Shown: positions 10,692-41,616 of the stretch, piece after piece
How the letters are laid out: every line of letters starts with the position of its first letter
How positions within the stretch are numbered: position 1 is the stretch's first letter
NCBI GenBank assembly: GCA_021647785.1
Contig: JAKIUC010000040.1
Span: 1-41,927, forward strand
From: Melioribacteraceae bacterium
GTDB taxonomy: Bacteria; Bacteroidota; Ignavibacteria; Ignavibacteriales; Melioribacteraceae
DNA length: 41,927 nucleotides
Reading direction: 5' to 3'
Translations under genes and position numbers: made by a program
Notes under the pieces: generated by a model
Told to the model about the DNA's origin: nothing
Databases searched by the model: none
What the model saw: the letters and a program-made list of their open reading frames with translations, nothing else

Positions 10692-12035
10692 ATGATTGAA
10701 TTAAAGTTTACCGCACAAAAAGCAAATGGACAAATAGTTAGCGGAAATTTAGCAGCCCCCACTTTTTCTGAAGGGAAGCAGCAAGTTAAAGCATTGATGG
10801 AGAAACATCGGCTTAAGTTAAAATCAATTCAGAAAAAAGTAACATTTATTTATAAGATAAAAAAAGGAAACGAGGCTGTTGTAAAAGGAGAGCAAAGAGC
10901 TTTTTCAAAAGAAGAAGTTGTTCAAGCCCTTACAAAGATGGGCTATCAGGTAGTTTCGGTAAACAAATTTCTTTTTGAATGGAACCCGAGACCGCCGCAA
11001 CAGGAAATATTATCGTTTGTTAAAATTAGTGCAGAACTTTTAGAGCAGAAATTACCATACAGCGAAATAATGACATTACTGATTAATGATTTGGAGAATA
11101 AAACACTTCGTGAATCTTTAAAACAAATTAATAACGATCTAAAACGTGGGGCAGATAGTCAAACAACATTTCTTCGTCACGAAAGAGTTTTTGGAAAATT
11201 TACAGCTTATATGCTTGGGCTTGCTGCAAAAAGTGGTAATATGACTGAGATTTACAAAGCTACAGCAAAGTTTCTGGAACGCAAAATGCAGTTTAGTAAA
11301 GATTTACGGAGTGCTTTAATTACACCGGCAATTACAATGTTTGTCCTTTTACTTGCCGTTCTTTTTTATGTAGGCTACATTTTTCCGGAAACAGCAAAAC
11401 TGTTTACCAAATTTGATATTAAACTTCCACCATTAACAGCAGCTACTTTAACTATAAGTGACTTCTTAATGAACCAATGGTTTTTAGTTCTGGTCGCAAT
11501 ATTTGTACCACCTATTATTTTAGTGTGGTGGGGCAGAACTAAAAAAGGAACCCTCTTCTTCGCAAAATATTTGATGAAAGTTCCAATAATGGGTAGTTTA
11601 ATACATAAAACAAATATCGAAGTTTTTTGTCGTGTATTCTATACTCTTTATAGTGGTTCTGCAGAATCAATTGAACCAATTAGAATTGCTTCTGAAGCAA
11701 CAGATAACGCATACTTTGAACAACAGATAAAAAAAGTTGCAATTCCTATGATGATTAGTAAAGGTGCTGGTGTTTCGGAATCGTTTGCAGCTGCAAAAGT
11801 ATTTACAGATACTGCAATTTCGCGTTTCCATTCTGGAGAAGAGAGTGGAACAATTAAGAATACTGCTCTTCAATTAGCAAATTATTATGAAAGTGAAACT
11901 GTATTTAGGCTAAAGAATGTAATAGAAATGATTCAAGTTTTTATTGCAATGGTTATTATGGTTGTAATGATTGGATTAACATTGGTTTCTGCAGAAACTG
12001 CAACAATTAATCCATCGAACCCTGGAACTAGATAA
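10692..12035 (+). CDS. pilC: PilC/GspF inner-membrane platform protein
   Basis: 447-residue polytopic protein of the type IV pilus/type II secretion platform, which connects the cytoplasmic ATPases to the growing pilus. Two GspF domains are visible: residues about 105-220 (from EILSFVKISAELLEQKLPYS) and about 305-425. Membrane segments lie at about 212-232, 260-280 and 412-432. The N-terminus is unusual: two copies of the small domain around KANGQIVSGNL...KALMEKHRLKLKSIQK (1-48) and KKGNEAVVKGEQ...ALTKMGYQVVSVNKF (56-96), where PilC normally has one. It heads a seven-gene cluster. Confidence 0.9.
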   Translation: MIELKFTAQKANGQIVSGNLAAPTFSEGKQQVKALMEKHRLKLKSIQKKVTFIYKIKKGNEAVVKGEQRAFSKEEVVQALTKMGYQVVSVNKFLFEWNPRPPQQEILSFVKISAELLEQKLPYSEIMTLLINDLENKTLRESLKQINNDLKRGADSQTTFLRHERVFGKFTAYMLGLAAKSGNMTEIYKATAKFLERKMQFSKDLRSALITPAITMFVLLLAVLFYVGYIFPETAKLFTKFDIKLPPLTAATLTISDFLMNQWFLVLVAIFVPPIILVWWGRTKKGTLFFAKYLMKVPIMGSLIHKTNIEVFCRVFYTLYSGSAESIEPIRIASEATDNAYFEQQIKKVAIPMMISKGAGVSESFAAAKVFTDTAISRFHSGEESGTIKNTALQLANYYESETVFRLKNVIEMIQVFIAMVIMVVMIGLTLVSAETATINPSNPGTR

Positions 12036-12145
12036 CTGATAATAATGGAAAATTTGAGAATGGTTTTTCCTCTAATTTAGTAAAAAAACTGAATTTCATA
12101 TTCAAAATCCTTACTTTAAAAGGTAAAATTCTACAAGGATAATAA

Positions 12146-13933
12146 ATGTTAGACTCACAACTTGAGATGACTGATAAAATTGGTTATTTACTTTTAAAAA
12201 AAGGTATAATTGATGATGAGATATTAGAGAAAGCCTTATCTGCTAAAAAAGCTGATGAGTTAAAAGGGCGGAGAAACCTTGCCCAAATTTTAGTTGGCGA
12301 ATTAAATTTTGACCACGATACCATTTTTAGAGAAGTTTCTGTTCTCTACGCATTTAAAGAGTTAAATATTTCGGTAGCTGATTTATCTGAAGTAAGAATT
12401 GAAGAGATTAAACGACTCCTAAACTCCAAAGGGGATGAGGTTCGGGACCAGTTTTTGCTTCATAAAGTTCTACCTTATAGTTACGATAAACTTAGAGATA
12501 GATTAGTACTTGCTGCTGTTGACCCAACTGATAAAGCATTAACCAAAATAGCTTATTCAATAAATATGAAAAAGTTTGAGGTTAACTTTCTTCGTAAAAA
12601 TGATTACGATAAGTTAGTTGAAATAATTGCTCCAGTCGAGAACGAATTCTTAAAAGCAATTCAAAGTTCTAGCGAAGAGCTAAGCGTTGAAATTGAAGAA
12701 TCAAGTCTTGACGAAGAAGAATTAGATGCTGAAATTAATAAGAGTGCACTTGTTAATTTAATTGAAGCATCCTTAGTAGAAGGTGTTCGTAAAGGGGCAA
12801 GTGATATTCATGTAGTTCCTAAAAGTGGAAACATAACCGAAATTCATTTTAGAATAGATGGTAAGTTACAACTATGGCATGCTCAAGATAATACACAGCC
12901 CGAAGCATTAATGGCTGTTGTTAAAGATAGAGCAAAAGGTTTAGATAGGTTTGAAAGGGAGAGGGCACAAGATGGATTTATTCAGCGTGCAATTGATAAC
13001 CATATTATTAGGTATCGAGTTTCGGTTCTACCTATGGTTGGTACAGAACTTAAAAATAAATTTGAATCGGTTGTTATAAGAATTTTAGATGATAGAAAGG
13101 TTATTAAAGATCTAAGTAAGTTGGGCTTAGTTGGCTATTCTAATAGAGCATTTACAAAAGCAATTAAACAACCGCAGGGGATGATTATTTTAACAGGTCC
13201 TACAGGAAGTGGTAAAAGTACAACTCTTGTTGCCGCCCTTTATCAAGTTATAGACCCTACAAAAAATATTTTAACAGTTGAGGATCCTGTTGAATATGTT
13301 ATTGAGGGTGCACGCCAGCTAAAAATTGGTTTCAGAATGAATTTTGAGCAAGCAATTAGATCTATATTACGACACGACCCTGATATAGTAATGGTAGGTG
13401 AAATGCGAGATAAGGAGACTGCGGAAACAGCAATAAAGCTTGCAAACACTGGTCACTTAACATTCTCTACACTTCACACAAACGATGCACCAAGTGCTGT
13501 TGCACGTCTTTATAAAATGGGAGTAGAACCATTTTTAATTGCTTATGCAATTAATATAATTGTTGCTCAGCGTTTAATAAGAAAGCTATGCAATAATTGT
13601 AAAAGAACAGTTGAAAAAATTGATGAAGCTGTTGCAGAAAGAGCAAAAATAAATCTTGATGATTGGAACAAGATAGAAATATTTGAAGCTGTTGGATGTG
13701 AAAAATGTAGTGGTTCTGGCTATAAAGGAAGAATGGCAATACACGAAGCTCTATATTTTACAAAAGAAATAAGAGAATTAGTTGTACGAGCAGGTGAAGA
13801 GATTGATGAAGATGCTGTAAGAAAGCAATCGAGAAAAGATGGAACATTAACTTTAAGAGAGTCTGGTTTGGAGAAAGTTAAGTTAGGACAAACGTCACTT
13901 GAGGAAGTTTTATCAGGAACAATGGACGATTAA
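12146..13933 (+). CDS. pilB: PilB/GspE assembly ATPase
   Basis: 595-residue hexameric ATPase that powers pilus or pseudopilus extension. An N-terminal MshEN/GspE-N type region (1-165) precedes an acidic linker (about 176-196). Then come the N2E domain (200-320), Walker A GPTGSGKS (351-358), Asp box VEDPVEYV (379-386), Walker B IVMVGEMRD (414-422) and His box LTFSTLHTND (438-447). A tetracysteine zinc site is formed by CNNC (482/485) and CEKC (518/521), as in PilB/GspE and unlike PilT. A purine-rich AAGGAT lies about 8 bases before the ATG. It sits between pilC and the pilT-like gene. Confidence 0.93.
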   Translation: MLDSQLEMTDKIGYLLLKKGIIDDEILEKALSAKKADELKGRRNLAQILVGELNFDHDTIFREVSVLYAFKELNISVADLSEVRIEEIKRLLNSKGDEVRDQFLLHKVLPYSYDKLRDRLVLAAVDPTDKALTKIAYSINMKKFEVNFLRKNDYDKLVEIIAPVENEFLKAIQSSSEELSVEIEESSLDEEELDAEINKSALVNLIEASLVEGVRKGASDIHVVPKSGNITEIHFRIDGKLQLWHAQDNTQPEALMAVVKDRAKGLDRFERERAQDGFIQRAIDNHIIRYRVSVLPMVGTELKNKFESVVIRILDDRKVIKDLSKLGLVGYSNRAFTKAIKQPQGMIILTGPTGSGKSTTLVAALYQVIDPTKNILTVEDPVEYVIEGARQLKIGFRMNFEQAIRSILRHDPDIVMVGEMRDKETAETAIKLANTGHLTFSTLHTNDAPSAVARLYKMGVEPFLIAYAINIIVAQRLIRKLCNNCKRTVEKIDEAVAERAKINLDDWNKIEIFEAVGCEKCSGSGYKGRMAIHEALYFTKEIRELVVRAGEEIDEDAVRKQSRKDGTLTLRESGLEKVKLGQTSLEEVLSGTMDD

Positions 13934-14000
13934 ACTTTATTTTGGTAAATTTTAAACGGTTTTTTTCGATAATCTATTTATGAGTTTTAAATTAATATTT

Positions 14001-14006
14001 GAGGAC
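14001..14006 (+). promoter_or_regulatory. Ribosome-binding site deciding the pilT-like start
   Basis: GAGGAC lies 7-9 bases before GTG at 14014. Using TTG at 13999 instead would place this Shine-Dalgarno-like sequence inside the coding region, so I prefer GTG 14014. Confidence 0.5.
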
Positions 14007-14013
14007 TAACCAA

Positions 14014-15237
14014 GTGATTGAAGCAAAAGGAATTTTAGCTAAATATGTTCAAAAAATACCGCAGAGTATATTAGGTGCTGAAAAGGTAAATTTCATTATT
14101 GAAATGGCACAGCAGATGCCAGGTGATGAAAAAGTTGAGCTTCATAAGATGATAAATTATGTTCTTACTCTAATGATTGAGAGAGAAGCCTCTGATGTGG
14201 AAGTTGGCGGGCACGGAACTGATGATTTTTTCTGGTTCCGTATTCATGGAGAAAAAGTTAGAGTTGAAGAATTACCTCGTTTTAATCATCTTGAAACATC
14301 AATATTAATTGTTTCTCTACTTACAAATAATCAATGCAAGCATTTGCTGGTAGGAAGAAATTTGGATTTCAGTTATTCCTTTCATTATGATGTTGTAAAT
14401 AAAAACGTTAGGTTTAGAGCCGATGCGTATTTTGATTTAGATACTCTTGCACTTAATATGCGTGCTATTTCTTCAATTGTACGCCCTTTAGAATCCCTTG
14501 GGTTTCATCAAAATGCTATTAGAATGATGAGCCATAATTACATTAAGTTTGGGTTATCATTAGTAACAGGAATTACAGGCTCGGGTAAATCTACCACACT
14601 CGATGCAATTATCGATTTTCATAATAAGTTTGACCCTGCACATATTGTTATTATTTCTGCACCTATTGAGTATGTGCATATATCTAACAAAGCTATTATT
14701 CGGCATAGAGAAGTTGGTAAGGATGTTCTCTCCTTTCAAGAGGGGGTTGTACAAGCATTACGTCAAGATCCTGATATTATTGTAATTGGAGAGATGAGAG
14801 ACCCCGAAACCATACTGGCAGCATTAGAAATAACAGATACTGGTCATAAAGTATTTTCAACTCTTCACACATCATCGGCTACAGAATCTATTGATAGAAT
14901 TATTGCCGAAGTTAACCCAGTTGAACAGGAAAGGGTTAGAAATAGATTGGCAGATGTTCTTACATCTGTTGTTTCTCAAAAACTTGTTCCATCTGTAGAT
15001 AAGAAACGAGTAATGGCAAAAGAGGTACTAATAGTAACTCCGAGTGTAAGAGCTGCAATAAAAAACGACAATACAAGTGAAATTTATATGATGGTTGTAC
15101 AAGGAGGTCCCCAAGGTATGATAACTATGGAACAAGATTTGCTACGTCTTGTGAAGCAAAGATTAATTACAAAGGAAATTGCTCTTGGTTATGCAAATAA
15201 TAAAAATAGAATGTTACAGTTACTTAAGGCTACATAA
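14014..15237 (+). CDS. pilT: PilT-like retraction-type ATPase
   Basis: 407-residue secretion ATPase without the zinc-binding insert of PilB. Walker A GITGSGKST (about 186-194), Asp-box equivalent ISAPIEYVH (Ala-Pro in place of the usual Asp-Pro), Walker B IIVIGEMRD and His box VFSTLHTSSA are present. The late region VRAAIKNDNTSEIYMMVVQG corresponds to the PilT AIRNLIRE block and ends in MITMEQDLLRLVKQRLIT, typical of PilT. The glutamate and arginine residues needed for hydrolysis appear to be present. Residues 1-60 are longer and more helical than in PilT. It is followed three bases later by the PilM-PilN fusion gene. Confidence 0.85.
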   Translation: MIEAKGILAKYVQKIPQSILGAEKVNFIIEMAQQMPGDEKVELHKMINYVLTLMIEREASDVEVGGHGTDDFFWFRIHGEKVRVEELPRFNHLETSILIVSLLTNNQCKHLLVGRNLDFSYSFHYDVVNKNVRFRADAYFDLDTLALNMRAISSIVRPLESLGFHQNAIRMMSHNYIKFGLSLVTGITGSGKSTTLDAIIDFHNKFDPAHIVIISAPIEYVHISNKAIIRHREVGKDVLSFQEGVVQALRQDPDIIVIGEMRDPETILAALEITDTGHKVFSTLHTSSATESIDRIIAEVNPVEQERVRNRLADVLTSVVSQKLVPSVDKKRVMAKEVLIVTPSVRAAIKNDNTSEIYMMVVQGGPQGMITMEQDLLRLVKQRLITKEIALGYANNKNRMLQLLKAT

Positions 15238-15240
15238 AGC

Positions 15241-16797
15241 ATGAAGAAGCCTCTAATATGTATATATAGTGAGGGAATGGAACTTAAAGTCTCTGTTCTT
15301 TCGAGAGAAAAGGATAAAATTTCTATTCATCAAAACTTTACGGTTGAAAAGAAGGATACTCGAAAGGTAGATCCTACCGAACAACTTGGAGATTTTACTG
15401 ATGATTCACTCTCTTCGGATGATATTTCTTTCGATTCTTTAGATAGTATGGATGAAACTTCCCCCTCGGCTTCTCAAAGTAATTCTAATGAAATATCTGA
15501 AATAGCTGCTGGTTTGGTGAATTACAATCTATCTAAAGCTCAATTCATACCTATAATTACTGACCCTAATGTTACTTTTCATATCTATGAAGGATTATTA
15601 GAGAAGGATAAAAAGAAAACAATTGATAAAATAATAGCAGAAATTCAAAATACTAAAGGATTAATTTTATTAAGGGATCAGATAGATTTTATCTCCTTAG
15701 ATGATAAAACACACTTGTGTGTTTTTACTGACCCCAATGTTGAGATGGCAAATTTTATCAATTCTGTTGCTAATTATAATGGTAAAAGATATTATAAAAT
15801 TCATTCAATAAAGAGTGCTGAAATTGCTCTTGCCAGTTTTGTTTCAAAAACCACTAAGTTTTTTCCGGAAGATTATTCTCTAATAATCTATATTGGAAAA
15901 GAGTTTAGTAAACTAATTTTCTTAGAAGGGCAAAACCTTAAACACATTGGTGCCACTTTAGATATTGGAACCCAAAATTTACACACTTACGATGTTTATT
16001 TCTCTAAGATTTTATTAGAGATGGAAAATGGTGGAATTCCAAGATTAGATAATGTTGTAATTTGCGGGGATGACCGTACTGAAAATTTAGTTCTCTCATT
16101 CTATGGAACATTTCCGGAAGCCAATGTTGCTGAATTAAAATTTGATATGTTTGATATTCTGAACATTCCTGAAGAAGAACAAAAGGATATTTCGTCATAC
16201 TCAATTCCTATTGCCGCCGCTTACGAGTATTATGCCGAACTTGATAAAGAATTGGTAGGTATCAATATTCTGCCTCGCTATATTCAGGAAAATCAAAAAT
16301 TCTTGCAGTTTGGATGGCATAGTTTTGCAATGCTTCCTATTATATTTGGAGTAACATTTTATTTTACATTTACAATTTTATCTAATGTTCAAGAAATTAA
16401 AGAATTAGATAATAAGATATATAACCTTGAGCAATTGGCTATAGAAAACCAAAGCCTTCTTGATCAAATGGATCCTTTATCCGATAGAATTGCAAATTTT
16501 GATAATACACAGGCAATTCTCGATTCTGCAATGAGCGGAACAGAAGTATGGGGTTACACATTAGAGAGAATCTCTAACTTTGTGGAACGAAGAAGAAACT
16601 TTTGGGTTTCTAACTTGGAAACAGGAAACAACTTTAATGTTTCAATGAAAGGTTTTTCATTATCTCGAAATGTTTTAACCGAGTTCTCAGAATATAGTAA
16701 TTCCTCGATACTGCAAAATGTTTTGTATGAACCATTACGTGAAAAAAACGCATTTGCATATGTGATAAGTTTCAAAACCGAAAAGAACAAAAAATAA
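15241..16797 (+). CDS. PilM-PilN fusion protein (GspL-like layout)
   Basis: 518 residues. The first 335 fit a divergent PilM/GspL actin-like domain (for example SLIIYIGKEFSKLIFLEGQ and the GATLDIGTQNL block), interrupted by an acidic Ser/Asp-rich insert (about 47-80). At 341-345 comes INILP, equivalent to the INLLP motif by which PilN docks into PilM. It is followed by one membrane segment (about 358-382), a coiled coil (about 383-415) and a ferredoxin-like tail, as in PilN. So the partner proteins appear to be joined in one chain. The ATP-binding residues of PilM are not obvious. The stop is directly followed by the next ATG (TAAATG). Confidence 0.75.
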   Translation: MKKPLICIYSEGMELKVSVLSREKDKISIHQNFTVEKKDTRKVDPTEQLGDFTDDSLSSDDISFDSLDSMDETSPSASQSNSNEISEIAAGLVNYNLSKAQFIPIITDPNVTFHIYEGLLEKDKKKTIDKIIAEIQNTKGLILLRDQIDFISLDDKTHLCVFTDPNVEMANFINSVANYNGKRYYKIHSIKSAEIALASFVSKTTKFFPEDYSLIIYIGKEFSKLIFLEGQNLKHIGATLDIGTQNLHTYDVYFSKILLEMENGGIPRLDNVVICGDDRTENLVLSFYGTFPEANVAELKFDMFDILNIPEEEQKDISSYSIPIAAAYEYYAELDKELVGINILPRYIQENQKFLQFGWHSFAMLPIIFGVTFYFTFTILSNVQEIKELDNKIYNLEQLAIENQSLLDQMDPLSDRIANFDNTQAILDSAMSGTEVWGYTLERISNFVERRRNFWVSNLETGNNFNVSMKGFSLSRNVLTEFSEYSNSSILQNVLYEPLREKNAFAYVISFKTEKNKK

Positions 16798-17688
16798 ATG
16801 AATCGTAAATTAAAAAACACGTTAATTCTAATTGCACTTCTACTTATTATTGTAGTTGCGGGAAGTCTATACACATTTCTTAATCAGAAAATGAGTATTG
16901 ATGATAGAAAAAAGAAGTTGAATGATTTGAATCTTAATGCTTATAATACTGAAGAATTAATAGAGCAGTTAAATACTTTAAAGTATAGAGCTATTGAGTT
17001 GGATTCAATTCTGGCTTTAAGAAAATTTAATATTCCTGTTAAGTTACATCAATCGGAGTTTTACAATTTTATTAATAAAGTGAGTTTTAATTTTGCTCCA
17101 GAATCATTTGTTAATATCGAGTATCAAGATATTACACTTGAAAAACACTACAAGTATTATACATATAAACTATCTGGCACTGCTTATTTTAATGATGTTT
17201 ATAAAATGATTTTTGCCATTGAACAAAGTAAGGAATTAAAAAAAATTACATCTATTGCATTTAATAATTTCGTTGAGGTTAATGAGGATGGAGTTCCTGG
17301 CTACTTTGTTACCTATACTATTAATTGTTCAATATATTTTTCCGATAATGACCAATTTGCATCATCTGTTTCTAAAGAGAATAGATTAACCCCAAACCCG
17401 CTTTACGATATATTTTATCCATTAATAAGAAATGAAATTCCACCAAATGTTGATGGCTTACTTGATGTACAATCGGCAGAGCTTTTGGCTTTAATTCCTG
17501 AAGGTGCGTTTCTTGCTGATTCCCGAGGCACCACATATTTATTATGGGAAGGGGATAAAGTTTATCTTGGTTATTTAACTGAAATAGATTATGATGAAAA
17601 TGTTGTTCACTTTGTACTCAACAAAGGTGGAATAATAGAGAAGATTACTTTGAGTCTTGAGAAAAAAAACGAAAAATTGAGTGAATAA
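16798..17688 (+). CDS. PilO-like protein with C-terminal PilP/GspC-like domain
   Basis: 296 residues. A single membrane anchor (about 7-28), a coiled coil (29-75) and a ferredoxin-like region (80-185) give the PilO layout. Residues about 195-290 (NPLYDIFYPL..., ELLALIPEGAFLADSRGTTYLLWEGDKVYLGYLTEI) resemble the beta domain of PilP/GspC that contacts the secretin N-domain: an NPF-like start, then an A-x-x-D-x-x-G-x-x-Y-x-x-x-x-G-D-x-V-x-x-G pattern. PilP is normally a separate lipoprotein. Start is immediate after the PilMN stop, and the secretin ATG follows one base after its stop, so the three are strongly coupled. Confidence 0.65.
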   Translation: MNRKLKNTLILIALLLIIVVAGSLYTFLNQKMSIDDRKKKLNDLNLNAYNTEELIEQLNTLKYRAIELDSILALRKFNIPVKLHQSEFYNFINKVSFNFAPESFVNIEYQDITLEKHYKYYTYKLSGTAYFNDVYKMIFAIEQSKELKKITSIAFNNFVEVNEDGVPGYFVTYTINCSIYFSDNDQFASSVSKENRLTPNPLYDIFYPLIRNEIPPNVDGLLDVQSAELLALIPEGAFLADSRGTTYLLWEGDKVYLGYLTEIDYDENVVHFVLNKGGIIEKITLSLEKKNEKLSE

Positions 17689-17689
17689 A

Positions 17690-18958
17690 ATGAAAAAGAT
17701 AATAATTTTACTGATGCTACTAATTACTGCACCATTACTGGGGCAAAGAGAATTAGAAAAAAGATTAAGTCAATTTGTTAATCCAAATGAAATAGTTTCA
17801 CTTGCCGAACATATTCCGTTTGATAAAGCAATTGATGTTTTAAGTAAAGTAAGTAGAAAAAATACTGGAAAAACGATTGTTTTAATTCCAAGCTATAGTG
17901 AACCAATTGGTATTGAAATTACTAGAATGCCTTTTATGCGTGCATTAAATATTATTGTTAACTATCACGATATGATTTATGTTGAAGATGCTGATGTTAT
18001 AATTGTGAAGCACGAATCTAAATCGACTGAAAATTTGAGTGAAGATGTTTATGCACCTGTAGATTCTCGTGAAATAAAAATATCTGCTCTCTTTTTCGAA
18101 GCAAATATTTCAGACATGAAAGAACGAGGAATAGATTGGGAATTTCTTATTCAAAAAACTGGTTTAAGTTTTGGTACTAAATTAATAACATTTACACAAG
18201 AAAAGAAACAAGCCGAAGGGGGCAACAATCAGCAGCAAGCAGTTGCTCATGAATTTATTCTTGGAAATAATACATCTTTTGAGATGGGTGATTTTACTGG
18301 TGATGTAATTGGGGCATTTAAATTTTTTGAAACTAACGGACTTGGAGAGTTAATAGCAAGACCCAATATTACAGTTCGCGATAAATCAACTGGTAGAATT
18401 CAGATTGGTTCAGATATATCAATTAAAGAGAGAGATTTTTCTGGTAATATAATTGATCGTTTCTATTCAACAGGAACAATAGTTGAAGTTACTCCATATT
18501 ATTATAATGAGGATGGAATTGATTATGTTCTACTTCAATTGCAGGCAGAACGAAGCTCAGCAAACCCCGGAGAGATATCAACAGAAATTAGAAAAACCGT
18601 TGCTACAACTGAAGTATTAATGCTTAATGGTGAGTCAACTATTATTGGAGGTCTTTTTACAAACGAAGAGGTTATTACAAGAAGTGGTATTCCTTTCTTA
18701 AAAGATTTGCCTTGGTGGGTTTTTGGAATTAGATATTTAACTGGTTCTGACAATACTCAAATAATTAAACGTGAAATAATAATTTTAATTGAAATTGAAA
18801 TTCTTCCTCCGCTGAAAGAGAGAATTGCAAAGAAGAAAGATGACTTAATAAGAAAAGCGATATTAGAGAATGAAAAGTATATGAAAGACCTTAAGAATCA
18901 GAAACAAAAAGCTGAATATGAAATAGAAGAAAGTAAATTAGATGAAGAAGAGGAATAG
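17690..18958 (+). CDS. pilQ: Secretin (PilQ/GspD family)
   Basis: 422-residue outer-membrane channel subunit. ATG 17690 gives a signal peptide (MKKIIILLMLLITAPLLGQ) and lies one base after the previous stop; GTG 17681 would overlap it. One N0/STN-like domain (about 43-107) is followed directly by the secretin core (about 125-375). The core contains GLGELIARPNITVRDKSTG and the signature GESTIIGGLFTNEEVITRSG plus IPFLKDLPWW. It is much shorter than typical PilQ because the AMIN and N1 repeats are missing. It ends in a highly charged helical tail (about 378-422). No pilotin gene is seen. Confidence 0.9.
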   Translation: MKKIIILLMLLITAPLLGQRELEKRLSQFVNPNEIVSLAEHIPFDKAIDVLSKVSRKNTGKTIVLIPSYSEPIGIEITRMPFMRALNIIVNYHDMIYVEDADVIIVKHESKSTENLSEDVYAPVDSREIKISALFFEANISDMKERGIDWEFLIQKTGLSFGTKLITFTQEKKQAEGGNNQQQAVAHEFILGNNTSFEMGDFTGDVIGAFKFFETNGLGELIARPNITVRDKSTGRIQIGSDISIKERDFSGNIIDRFYSTGTIVEVTPYYYNEDGIDYVLLQLQAERSSANPGEISTEIRKTVATTEVLMLNGESTIIGGLFTNEEVITRSGIPFLKDLPWWVFGIRYLTGSDNTQIIKREIIILIEIEILPPLKERIAKKKDDLIRKAILENEKYMKDLKNQKQKAEYEIEESKLDEEEE

Positions 18959-20020: not shown

Positions 20021-23000
20021 ATGAAACGTTTTACAACTTTATTATTTTTAATTATTTTATCAATTTTTACAAATGGTCAAACTATTGTAAATATACAACA
20101 AGCGACTACTTTGTGGTACTATACAAACACTTCCCCTAATACTCCATCTGCTTATACATGGTATGAGGAAACAAATATAAAACAAGGAGTTCATATTAGT
20201 GTTGTACCACCTGAAAAAACAGATATTTATTTACAACAAAATAATTCATGGATTAATTTTCATACTTTGGATTATGGTTTTATGTTTGAACTAAAAGTAA
20301 GCTACGATGGTGGTAGTTTTATTACATATTTTTCAGATGAAACAAAAGAAACTTCAGGTTGGAAAAAAACACCTTTTGCAACTTTAGGTAAACATACAAT
20401 AACTCTTGAGTGGAAATCTCTTGCACTAACAACTTATTATCGTTCATATGATGTTTATGTTGTTCCACAAAGTCAGAAGTTTTATAAGGATAACTATGGT
20501 AATACTATTACTTGTTGGGAGGGGAACGGTGAGAAAAAACCAATTATAGTTTCTGAAGGATTTGATGCGTATGATGTTTCTCCCGCAGAATTTTTACGTC
20601 ATTCAGGGGGTGAGCTATTTAATACATTGTCGTCTAACGGGCATAGTATTTATATAGTAAATTATATTTTTAATTCACAAGATATTGAAAACAATGCCTC
20701 AGTCTATCATTCTGCTTCTGAGTATATTGGAAATATTACTAGCTTTAATGATATGATTGCAGTAGGTGTAAGCATGGGAGGGTTAATTGTAAGATATGCA
20801 TTAGCAAAAGCAGAAGGTAATTCAGATAATTTACCATTTGCAAAATTTATCTCGATTGATTCACCGCAGCAGGGTGCAGTTATGTCAGAACCATTACAAG
20901 ATTACATTAAGGAAAACGCAAATAGTTCATTTAAAAAACATGGGCTTAATAATACTGCTGCCAAACAGATGCTGAATTATAACACTTTTGGAAGTCTAAA
21001 AACTCAATTTTTTAATGAGTTGAATTCGTTAAATAATGGCAATGGTTATCCAAATGGCACTTATAATATAGGTGTTTCCTTTTCTAATGGCACACCTAAC
21101 TTATCTAATGGGAAATGGCTTGAAGTAATTGTTAGAGGAAATTTTGCTCCTATTCCTTTCGATATAACTTTAGAAAGAGAACCATTTTACCTTACAACAG
21201 AAGAAAAAGTGCCTGGCTCCTATTTACCAAGTTATCTGATAGCTTCGTCTCCAAGTCCAACAGGAATGTTTTTTGGTTGGTGGACCGCCTTAGGTATTTT
21301 CCCTTCAGGATTAGCCTGGATTAAGAGATTTGAAAACATTAATCCCACGTTTATACCTTATAGTAGCTCATTAGATATTGTAAATAATAATTCGAAATTT
21401 GATTTTATAATTCAAGCAAATGCGAATTATTTTCATAATCAATTTCCACAAGAAGTAGTTGACAAAATTCTTTGGGAATTAGGGATAGTTGCACGCGATT
21501 TTACTCTAGATGAATCAGTAACACTTGATGAATCATTATTAATTACTAATAATTCAACACTAACTATTAGTAGTGGTGTTAATATTAAGTTAAAAAATGG
21601 TGTTGATATTGTAGTAGAAGCAGGTTCAAAAATTGATGCTAATGGAACTGAATCAGCACCCATTGTTTTTGAACGCTACAATTCTACTGAAAGTTGGGGT
21701 GAAATAGAATTGCAAGGTGATAATAATTATTTTAACTATTGTACTTTTGATGGTGGAACTTATAACATTAATGTCCAAAGCTCTAATAACACAATAAAGA
21801 ATTCTACTTTTAAAAATGCTGATGTAGGTTTGTTTAGTCAGTCTTCAAATCCCGGAACTTTCTCTTATTCAAATTTCCTAAATAATAATATTGGAATTCA
21901 ATTAGCAAGTTCAAGTCCATTCTTATCACACAATAATATTACAAATAATGCTGATGATGGAATTCATATGGCTTCATCATCCCCTATTTTATCTCGTAAT
22001 TTAGTTTCTGATAATGGAGGACATGGATTGTATGTTACTTTAAATAGTTCGCCGCAGTTTGATGCAATTGATGGTCATAATATTATTAAAAATAATTCTG
22101 GTATTGGTATTTATGCAATGTCATCTATATTCAATGAAGAAACTAGCAGTGGGCAATGTATGGCTTGTCATTCATCTGGAAGTCAAAATAGTATTTATAA
22201 CAACAACGCATCATCATGTAATGAATGCCATAGTGGTACACCAGAATATCAGGTTTCAGCAAATTACAATAGTGATGTTATTGTAGAGAGCAATTGGTGG
22301 GGAACCCCAACTCCATTATCTTCCTCTTTTTATGAAGATAATAGCTCATTTATCGATTATCAACCTTATTTATCATCAGACCCAAACCAAGGTGGATTAA
22401 GTAAAATTCAACCAAATATAATCTATTCAACTAGTAATACAGAGAAATTTAATCATTCTCAATTATCGGACGTATCTTTGGCGAGATACTACCAGGCTAG
22501 TGGTCAATACGAAAATGCCATTGAAGAGTATAAAAAAATTATTTCATTAAAATCAGATTCAAAAATTATTCGGTACTCACTAAACGCTTTGGTTTCTTGT
22601 TCTAAAAAGTTAAAAAAGAAAGATATTAAAACTTATTTAGATGGAATTGTAGATGACAAATCAGAAAATGAATTAATTAATCAAACCTTACTATTAAAAT
22701 CAAGTTTGCTTGTTGAAACTGGCAAATATAAAGAAGCTGTAAGTCTTAACAAGAAAATTGTAAAACAATTTTCTCAAAATAAATCATTTAAAAGAGATGC
22801 ATTGTACAATATGTATATGATTTATTATAATAATCTTAACGACAAAAAAAATGCTTCTCGAATTTATTCTGAGATGGAAAAACTCTATTATGACGAAAAT
22901 CTTTGTCTTGGCGATGGTTATTTGAAACAAATGGCAAAAACACTTGGGAAACAAGCACCAAGTATGATTTCTTCAAAGTCCTTTCAAACGAGCAAAGAAG

Positions 23001-23272
23001 TTGATTCAAATAAAGAAGATGTACTAAATAATTATCCAAATCCATTCAATCCATCTACAAAAATAGAATTTTCAATTTCAAAGGCTGGTTTGTTCTCCTT
23101 AAAAGTCTATGATATTCTTGGACAAGAAATTTCTACACTTGTTGAAAAACATTTTGAGTCTGGCAAATATTCTATTGATTTCAATGCTAGTGAACTAACT
23201 TCCGGAATCTACTTCTATAAATTAGTTGGAGAAAATGTTAATTTAACAAAAAAGATGTTATTGATGAGATAG
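20021..23272 (+). CDS. Type IX-secreted esterase/beta-helix protein with two CxxCH motifs
   Basis: 1083 residues in clear segments: signal peptide (1-20); beta-sandwich (about 25-150); alpha/beta-hydrolase of PGAP1/triacylglycerol-lipase type with nucleophile elbow GVSMG (Ser about 251) and a late His in FHNQFP (about 472); right-handed parallel beta-helix (about 495-700) with NNxIGI-type rungs; an insert with CMACH (713-717) and CNECH (733-737); TPR-like helices (about 818-950); and a type IX sorting domain starting NYPNPFNPSTKIEF (about 1006) and ending KKMLLMR. It would be exported by the Sec system, then by T9SS, and kept on or released from the surface. CxxCH pairs are haem c attachment motifs, which is unexpected here. 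A rho-independent terminator follows. Confidence 0.85.
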   Translation: MKRFTTLLFLIILSIFTNGQTIVNIQQATTLWYYTNTSPNTPSAYTWYEETNIKQGVHISVVPPEKTDIYLQQNNSWINFHTLDYGFMFELKVSYDGGSFITYFSDETKETSGWKKTPFATLGKHTITLEWKSLALTTYYRSYDVYVVPQSQKFYKDNYGNTITCWEGNGEKKPIIVSEGFDAYDVSPAEFLRHSGGELFNTLSSNGHSIYIVNYIFNSQDIENNASVYHSASEYIGNITSFNDMIAVGVSMGGLIVRYALAKAEGNSDNLPFAKFISIDSPQQGAVMSEPLQDYIKENANSSFKKHGLNNTAAKQMLNYNTFGSLKTQFFNELNSLNNGNGYPNGTYNIGVSFSNGTPNLSNGKWLEVIVRGNFAPIPFDITLEREPFYLTTEEKVPGSYLPSYLIASSPSPTGMFFGWWTALGIFPSGLAWIKRFENINPTFIPYSSSLDIVNNNSKFDFIIQANANYFHNQFPQEVVDKILWELGIVARDFTLDESVTLDESLLITNNSTLTISSGVNIKLKNGVDIVVEAGSKIDANGTESAPIVFERYNSTESWGEIELQGDNNYFNYCTFDGGTYNINVQSSNNTIKNSTFKNADVGLFSQSSNPGTFSYSNFLNNNIGIQLASSSPFLSHNNITNNADDGIHMASSSPILSRNLVSDNGGHGLYVTLNSSPQFDAIDGHNIIKNNSGIGIYAMSSIFNEETSSGQCMACHSSGSQNSIYNNNASSCNECHSGTPEYQVSANYNSDVIVESNWWGTPTPLSSSFYEDNSSFIDYQPYLSSDPNQGGLSKIQPNIIYSTSNTEKFNHSQLSDVSLARYYQASGQYENAIEEYKKIISLKSDSKIIRYSLNALVSCSKKLKKKDIKTYLDGIVDDKSENELINQTLLLKSSLLVETGKYKEAVSLNKKIVKQFSQNKSFKRDALYNMYMIYYNNLNDKKNASRIYSEMEKLYYDENLCLGDGYLKQMAKTLGKQAPSMISSKSFQTSKEVDSNKEDVLNNYPNPFNPSTKIEFSISKAGLFSLKVYDILGQEISTLVEKHFESGKYSIDFNASELTSGIYFYKLVGENVNLTKKMLLMR

Positions 23273-40575: not shown

Positions 40576-41616
40576 TTATCTTAGCAGTAACATCTTATTT
40601 ACTTTAGTAAAACGACCACTCTCTATCTTATAAAAATAAACACCACTTGGTAAATTACTTGCATTAAATTGAACTGAATACTTACCACTAGTTTGATGTT
40701 CATTTACAAGTGTTGAAACTACTTGACCAAGAGTATTGTACACAACCAGACTTACAAATCCATCTTTTGGAATTTGATAACTTAGTTGTGTAGATGGATT
40801 AAACGGATTAGGATAATTTTGATAGAGCAAAAAGTATTTAACACTATTTGAAGAATTATGATAATTATTTATATCCGTAGTACTCATACTTATCATAAAT
40901 AATGAGTCTATTGAACTATCCACTAACCAAAAAGAGAAGTTGTGACTATGAGTAATTCCTGTTAAAGAATGGTAAGGTATTCTTAAAAATGCTATCTCTT
41001 TCCCAGAAGGAATAATCCAACTTGAGACAATGGATGTATAAGAAGTTTGATTATGTAAAGTCCATAAATTAATTCCGTCAAACGTTAAATCATTGGCAGT
41101 ACAAAAAAATGATGTATCTACAGAACCATTATTTGGATTAATGCTAAAAGCGGAACTACTCCAACCAGCAGAAAATGCACTCCAAAGATGTACCCCATCC
41201 CATGCTAGACCAGATACATCATTCTCAAGTAATGATACCCCATTAACCTCATTTGGTAACTTAAGAGTATCAAGAATTTCACCACTTTCTCGATTTAATT
41301 TAAATAATAATTTTTCAGTATCATCCAAATTCCATAAATATTCACCGTCATAAGTCAATCCCGTTGGATTATTTCCTGGTGAATTAAAAGAATCTAGAAC
41401 AGTACCTTTGGATGAGTTTAGTTTGTATATCATTTTTGTGCTATCATCCACAACCCATAGATTATTTCCATCCCATGTCAATCCAGAAGAACTTGGACCT
41501 GGAGCTGGGATGGAGGCTACAACGTTAAAGTCTAATTCCACCAATGGCTGTGCTTGTAAATAATTTGTAATAATAAGAATATAAAAAAACACATATGATA
41601 ATTTTACTTTATTCAA
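40576..41616 (-). CDS. Type IX-secreted beta-propeller protein
   Basis: 346 residues. Signal peptide (about 1-22), then a propeller of repeated blades with a GLTWDGNNLWVVDDSTKMIY / GLTYDGEYLWNLDDTEKLLF / GLAWDGVHLW / LTFDGINLWTLH pattern (about 30-240). A type IX sorting domain begins at NYPNPFNPSTQLSYQI (about 268) and ends KVNKMLLLR. The last 35 codons are nearly identical to those of the next gene (41753 onward). It is followed by attC-like site 4. No attC-like site is seen between it and the next gene, so the cassette may hold two genes or the array may end here. Confidence 0.85.
   Translation of the reverse strand: MNKVKLSYVFFYILIITNYLQAQPLVELDFNVVASIPAPGPSSSGLTWDGNNLWVVDDSTKMIYKLNSSKGTVLDSFNSPGNNPTGLTYDGEYLWNLDDTEKLLFKLNRESGEILDTLKLPNEVNGVSLLENDVSGLAWDGVHLWSAFSAGWSSSAFSINPNNGSVDTSFFCTANDLTFDGINLWTLHNQTSYTSIVSSWIIPSGKEIAFLRIPYHSLTGITHSHNFSFWLVDSSIDSLFMISMSTTDINNYHNSSNSVKYFLLYQNYPNPFNPSTQLSYQIPKDGFVSLVVYNTLGQVVSTLVNEHQTSGKYSVQFNASNLPSGVYFYKIESGRFTKVNKMLLLR
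40616..40716 (-). repeat. Near-identical 101-base sorting-domain repeat, copy 1
   Basis: The plus strand starts CCACTCTCTATCTTATAAAA and ends ACAAGTGTTGA. It matches 41793-41893 except for C/T at the 12th base and G/A in ACTGAA/ACTAAA. Direct orientation, 1177 bases apart. Confidence 0.9.

Follow-up and report, generated by a model that had tools for sequence, protein, structure and literature searches.

Two CxxCH motifs on loop insertions of a beta-helix in a predicted T9SS-exported hydrolase-like protein, a candidate di-haem surface protein

The window analysed here, that is, the whole 41,927-nucleotide stretch of a Melioribacteraceae bacterium contig, carries on its plus strand an open reading frame (20021..23272) encoding a protein of 1083 residues, to which we refer as the window protein. 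Its profile matches lay out a modular chain that reads, from N to C terminus, as a signal peptide-like start (judged by eye), an alpha/beta-hydrolase-like domain, a beta-helix, a weak TPR region and a T9SS sorting tail. The hydrolase (esterase)-like domain spans residues 1-485 (20021..21475, plus strand) and matches DUF676 under the cut-off (E 0.0023). The right-handed beta-helix that follows, approximately residues 486-763 (21476..22309, plus strand), is recognized over cut-off by both NosD (residues 568-763, 25.2 against a cut-off of 23.6) and para_beta_helix (TIGR03804, 24.3 against 19.45). Further along the same strand, a TPR-like region has its best stretch at residues 811-856 (22451..22588), under the cut-offs, and precedes a T9SS type A sorting tail (23033..23260) that is over cut-off for both PF18962 (E 1.4e-10) and TIGR04183 (E 1.1e-9). 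PDB sequence searches with residues 1-485 and 486-800 returned nothing at E up to 1. That the protein is exported by the T9SS, as the original prediction had it, is borne out by the tail together with the presence in the genome of SprA, the component of the system covered by our search (TIGR04189, 827 bits for the main stretch against a cut-off of 200).

Two CxxCH motifs lie towards the end of the beta-helix: CMACH at residues 713-717 (22157..22171) and CNECH at residues 733-737 (22217..22231), both on the plus strand and with 15 residues between them, an arrangement that had been proposed earlier and that reading the open frame confirms. The composition of the protein would lead us to expect 0.0009 such motifs and, in 20,000 shuffles of its sequence, at least one appeared in 11 and two in none. 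These shuffles, together with the composition count on T9SS cargo given below, lead us to reject a chance origin of the pair as unlikely; it is a real, non-random feature of the protein. We then built an alignment of the window protein and 13 distinct homologues, all of them ending in the NWWG block, from which three rows repeating the window or another homologue had been left out. The first of two insertions, which brings CMACH, falls within approximately residues 702-724 and extends 6 columns beyond the longest homologues and 15 beyond the shortest; it is offset by a nearby 2-residue gap, so that the net gain is of about 4 to 13 residues. After it, the usual strand is kept (NSIYNN, to be compared with NSIKNN, NSICNN, NRIENN and similar in the homologues), and the second insertion, the 12 residues ASSCNECHSGTP (residues 730-741, 22208..22243, plus strand), comes in the next turn, where 12 of the 13 homologues have no insertion and the remaining one has 1 residue. 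The alignment places the CxxCH pair on two loop insertions, in adjacent turns, within the final part of the beta-helix, and not after it as had been suggested, since the NosD match runs over both motifs and beta-helix sequence flanks and separates them. The idea that a fragment of a multihaem cytochrome was transplanted here fares no better and can be discarded: the insertions number two, and the strand separating the motifs aligns with the beta-helix of the homologues.

None of the 13 homologues has CxxC or CxxCH in the aligned stretch, and homologues keeping the cysteines of the motifs without their histidine, a pattern that would be at odds with haem, did not occur, though 6 of them have a single cysteine in the first loop. 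In 5 of these 6 (L042, L044, L047, L054 and L057, at the helix end) another cysteine lies 22-23 residues on, making a disulphide across turns possible. The cysteines of the window protein could likewise be paired within or between the loops, stiffening the end of a helix predicted to be extracellular, with the histidines being incidental. Such a reading is nonetheless unlikely in our opinion, given that the homologues show no CxxC at these loops, that their second cysteine is missing from the window protein, and that two exact CxxCH, rather than bare cysteines, are improbable by chance.

No Pfam cytochrome family matches the window protein over cut-off. PF14522 comes closest, at E 0.0029 and 17.8 bits for a cut-off of 24.8, and these sub-threshold matches rest on the CxxCH motifs themselves. 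Outside its own fold, the motif segment does resemble multihaem cytochromes, in a likeness that is motif-driven: a 66-residue segment matched 91 of 395 genomes of the phylum (an even draw from a larger group) at E up to 0.1, and 26 of the 29 loci returned other than the window hold an ORF with at least two CxxCH, in alignments driven by the motif. No source of the insert emerged from its comparison, as DNA and as protein, with a subset of loci of its own genome, the DNA matches being short and the protein ones mostly motif. Nor is there anything special in the 20-residue spacing of the motifs, which is ordinary among the cytochromes of this genome (42 of the 166 neighbouring pairs seen are at 16-24 residues, 2 at exactly 20). 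Structure prediction, called for by the original prediction, was run twice with AlphaFold2 from the single sequence and proved uninformative around the motifs, where pLDDT is below 40 (mean pLDDT 49.5 and 38.2 for the two runs). Beta strands were modelled with moderate confidence over residues 486-630 (the first 145 residues). A Foldseek search with the first model returned nothing at E up to 0.001, and many of the weaker matches are to beta-helix proteins.

Neither model contradicts a second alternative, in which the four cysteines, or cysteines and the two histidines, of the neighbouring loops would hold a single ion of zinc or another metal that staples the end of the beta-helix, and two CxxC set 20 residues apart on adjacent turns may well be a usable arrangement for it. 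Yet both motifs carry the histidine of CxxCH, the loci returned by the phylum search mostly encode proteins with two or more CxxCH, albeit in motif-driven alignments, and none of the 18 Pfam families that the window protein matches at E up to 1 is a zinc family, all of which makes a metal site improbable.

The genome appears able to attach haem. PF01578 is found at four places, and one cluster (L068) encodes a CcmC-like protein, CcmE (E 6.9e-17) and CcmF (CcmF_C, E 2.1e-25), all over the Pfam cut-offs; a second CcmF lies elsewhere (L067), and the fourth PF01578 gene (L069), which has haem-biosynthesis-like ORFs nearby (by eye), may have a function other than maturation. The evidence for System I consists of the CcmC-like protein, CcmE and CcmF, the components that our search covered, and it settles a check proposed along with the haem idea, ruling out a genome devoid of cytochrome c maturation. 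System I is reported to ask little of its substrates beyond CxxCH. In an engineering study, a three-residue substitution in non-haem bacterial shell proteins reportedly led to covalent haem through this system (PMC6962350). With so little required and the Ccm genes at hand, c-type haem is probably attached to both loops of the window protein ahead of its export by the T9SS. A natural parallel is offered by the haem Cache domains (DUF3365/Tll0287, sCache_heme), for which c-type haem is reported experimentally in a preprint (PMC12889525). As described there, they resemble the window protein in having CxxCH in a short added element of a non-cytochrome extracytoplasmic fold whose relatives lack the motif. 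They differ in being built on a Cache fold, with one motif, a wide distribution and a sensory or redox role, whereas in our case the fold is a beta-helix, the loops are two, the genome is one, the protein is T9SS cargo and the haem is putative. By analogy, the engineered shell proteins and the Cache domains make haem attachment to the window protein plausible. As for axial ligands, the 200 residues before NWWG contain 4 histidines beyond those of the motifs, of which His668 and His686, judged by eye to lie one or two coils off, are candidate distal ligands. These candidates carry little weight because the count is inside the range of the homologues (0 to 7), and no special axial-ligand signature was found when histidine counts were compared with theirs.

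We studied T9SS cargo in this genome, where at least 150 TIGR04183 tails are present (150 of 201 candidates scored). Of the 148 tailed proteins encoded outside the window (106,634 residues in total), the open frame was complete for 145, and the other 3 lacked 4, 6 and 11 residues. CxxCH was found in 2 of the 148 and missing from 146. Among the 150 tailed proteins listed, the motif is confined to three, namely the window protein and two cytochromes with 7 and 8 motifs. A second tail profile of our own making returned 151 tailed ORFs, the same three with CxxCH and 148 without (106,886 residues), in which composition alone predicts 0.014 motifs. The heptahaem cytochrome (659 residues, 7 CxxCH; G000:C91:33983-35959, which is L068:13984-15960, also L190) is encoded two ORFs from the CcmF gene of the CcmC-CcmE-CcmF cluster. 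The octahaem protein (572 residues, 8 CxxCH; G000:C87:7229-8944, which is L203:4230-5945) matches the cytochrome c552 profile, which is of the NrfA type. Both of them match several Pfam cytochrome families as well as the sorting tail, all over cut-off. They have in common with the window protein the CxxCH motifs, the T9SS type A tail and the cell in which they occur, but differ in that no beta-helix or hydrolase family is among the Pfam families they match at E up to 0.001. The window itself contains a second T9SS-tailed protein (40576-41616, minus strand), without CxxCH.

These two cytochromes are conserved. Relatives of the heptahaem protein were found at E up to 1e-40 in 19 of 164 genomes of the order, its own included; in the others, the match is nearly full-length in 12 (35-65% identity), interrupted by contig ends in 1 and confined to the last 200 residues or so in 5. 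A single ORF combines 6 or 7 CxxCH with the tail in 18 of the 19. Full-length homologues of the octahaem protein are present in 6 of 96 other genomes (49-80% identity, all with 8 or 9 CxxCH and the tail), the raw tally of 97 out of 97 being useless because the tail alone matches. The prediction of c-type haem on T9SS cargo is supported as far as the window protein does have the motifs and the tail. Such motifs on T9SS cargo are not peculiar to it, as two T9SS-tailed cytochromes co-exist with it. Judging from sequence, these conserved multihaem cytochromes are a firmer case than the window protein, and it is they that best support the existence of T9SS cargo with c-type haem.

The open-access literature that we searched yielded nothing that appeared to join T9SS or its sorting domain with multihaem proteins, CXXCH or extracellular electron transfer, a negative that is no proof that such cargo is unpublished. 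Among reports on possibly related bacteria, term searches gave no match for secretion, sorting or T9SS in PMC7399161; in PMC3534657 they gave one mention of the Por sorting tail, for carbohydrate-active enzymes, and no match for multiheme; and in PMC5492636 no match to the terms sought.

From what can be read in the DNA (the motifs, the two insertions, the T9SS tail, the CcmC-like, CcmE and CcmF genes, SprA and the co-existing T9SS-tailed cytochromes), we can sketch how a haem protein of this kind would be made. Two adjacent turn loops of the beta-helix would each have acquired one CxxCH. The chain would cross the inner membrane by Sec, using its putative signal, and in the periplasm System I would join one c-type haem to each motif, the beta-helix folding with two neighbouring haems on its surface. 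The T9SS would then move the folded holoprotein out through SprA, haem included, and the tail would anchor it. Once outside, the two haems could form a small surface redox relay through which electrons are donated to other exported cytochromes or accepted from them, although this role is a guess. Taken as a whole, we lean slightly towards the view that the window protein is a surface-exported hydrolase-like protein with a di-haem beta-helix whose haems would serve as a surface redox relay. The broader proposal, in which two insertions turned a beta-helix into a di-haem redox domain that is exported folded, and the T9SS of the order is a route for placing c-type haem on the surface, we put forward more tentatively, as something that could be true but that we would not bet on.

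If haem is bound, the window protein would represent a natural c-type haem graft on a repeat scaffold without cytochrome ancestry, and one protein would suffice to illustrate how little System I demands of its substrate. And if T9SS cargo with c-type haem is real, it would give this order a way of placing cytochromes beyond the outer membrane. A Cytochrome_C7 match is present in 145 of the 146 genomes of the order searched, comprising that of the window and its relatives.

With an E limit of 0.01, the 114-residue segment containing the motif pair matched 38 places in 25 of the 164 order genomes (that of the window among them) and, among the 32 places examined, CxxCH was present only at the window locus and at one other, in G131. 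The latter encodes a protein with a T9SS tail and 4 CxxCH, and the match extends over its motif region. This protein (L052, G131:C707, minus strand, 960 residues) belongs to a more distant relative. A CxxCH pair in a beta-helix was found in no second genome among the genomes and places of the order that were examined, and the full architecture with the motifs is likewise restricted to one genome among those searched, so that there is no conservation from which to argue for function. The beta-helix and T9SS-tail proteins of the order (for example L010, which is L037 in the alignment) have the NWWG helix end and the tail in common with the window protein, the longer matches covering about 480-600 residues at 25-34% identity, but they are devoid of CxxCH and both their loops are short. 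A search of plasmids matched 5 records, none of them over more than 19% of the window protein, and a scan of genome contigs gave one relative, matching residues 1-484.

Such rarity fits a scenario in which two CxxCH arose by loop drift and are loaded with haem by System I to no selected purpose, and the fact that the closest relatives have only the N-terminal domain in common with the window protein fits that possibility too. We deem it doubtful all the same. Drift would have had to deliver two motifs in two separate insertions, and otherwise only the two cytochromes have CxxCH among the T9SS-tailed proteins that were listed for this genome. Taken together, the two insertions and the lack of CxxCH in the remaining listed cargo suggest that the loops of the window protein were shaped by selection rather than drift.

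Upstream of the gene, at 10692-18958 of the window, there is a run of genes with the appearance of a type IV pilus or type II secretion system, including GspF/PilC-, PilB- and PilT-like proteins and a secretin-like protein (all by eye). As for the N-terminal domain, its four nearest relatives (G019, G001, G010 and G017; 45-90% identical over this domain) match from residues 1-7 to residues 484-556 only. The GVSMGG motif with Ser251, together with His472, is invariant across the window protein, G019, G001 and G017; Ser251 is retained in all four relatives and His472 in the three that cover its position, the G010 ORF, which has a stop, ending before it. G019 runs off its contig. G001 continues C-terminally with a T9SS tail and with what looks by eye like an FN3 stretch. 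The hydrolase-like domain (20021-21475 in the window, and L006, L007, L008 and L009) seems to be joined to different C-terminal parts across genomes.
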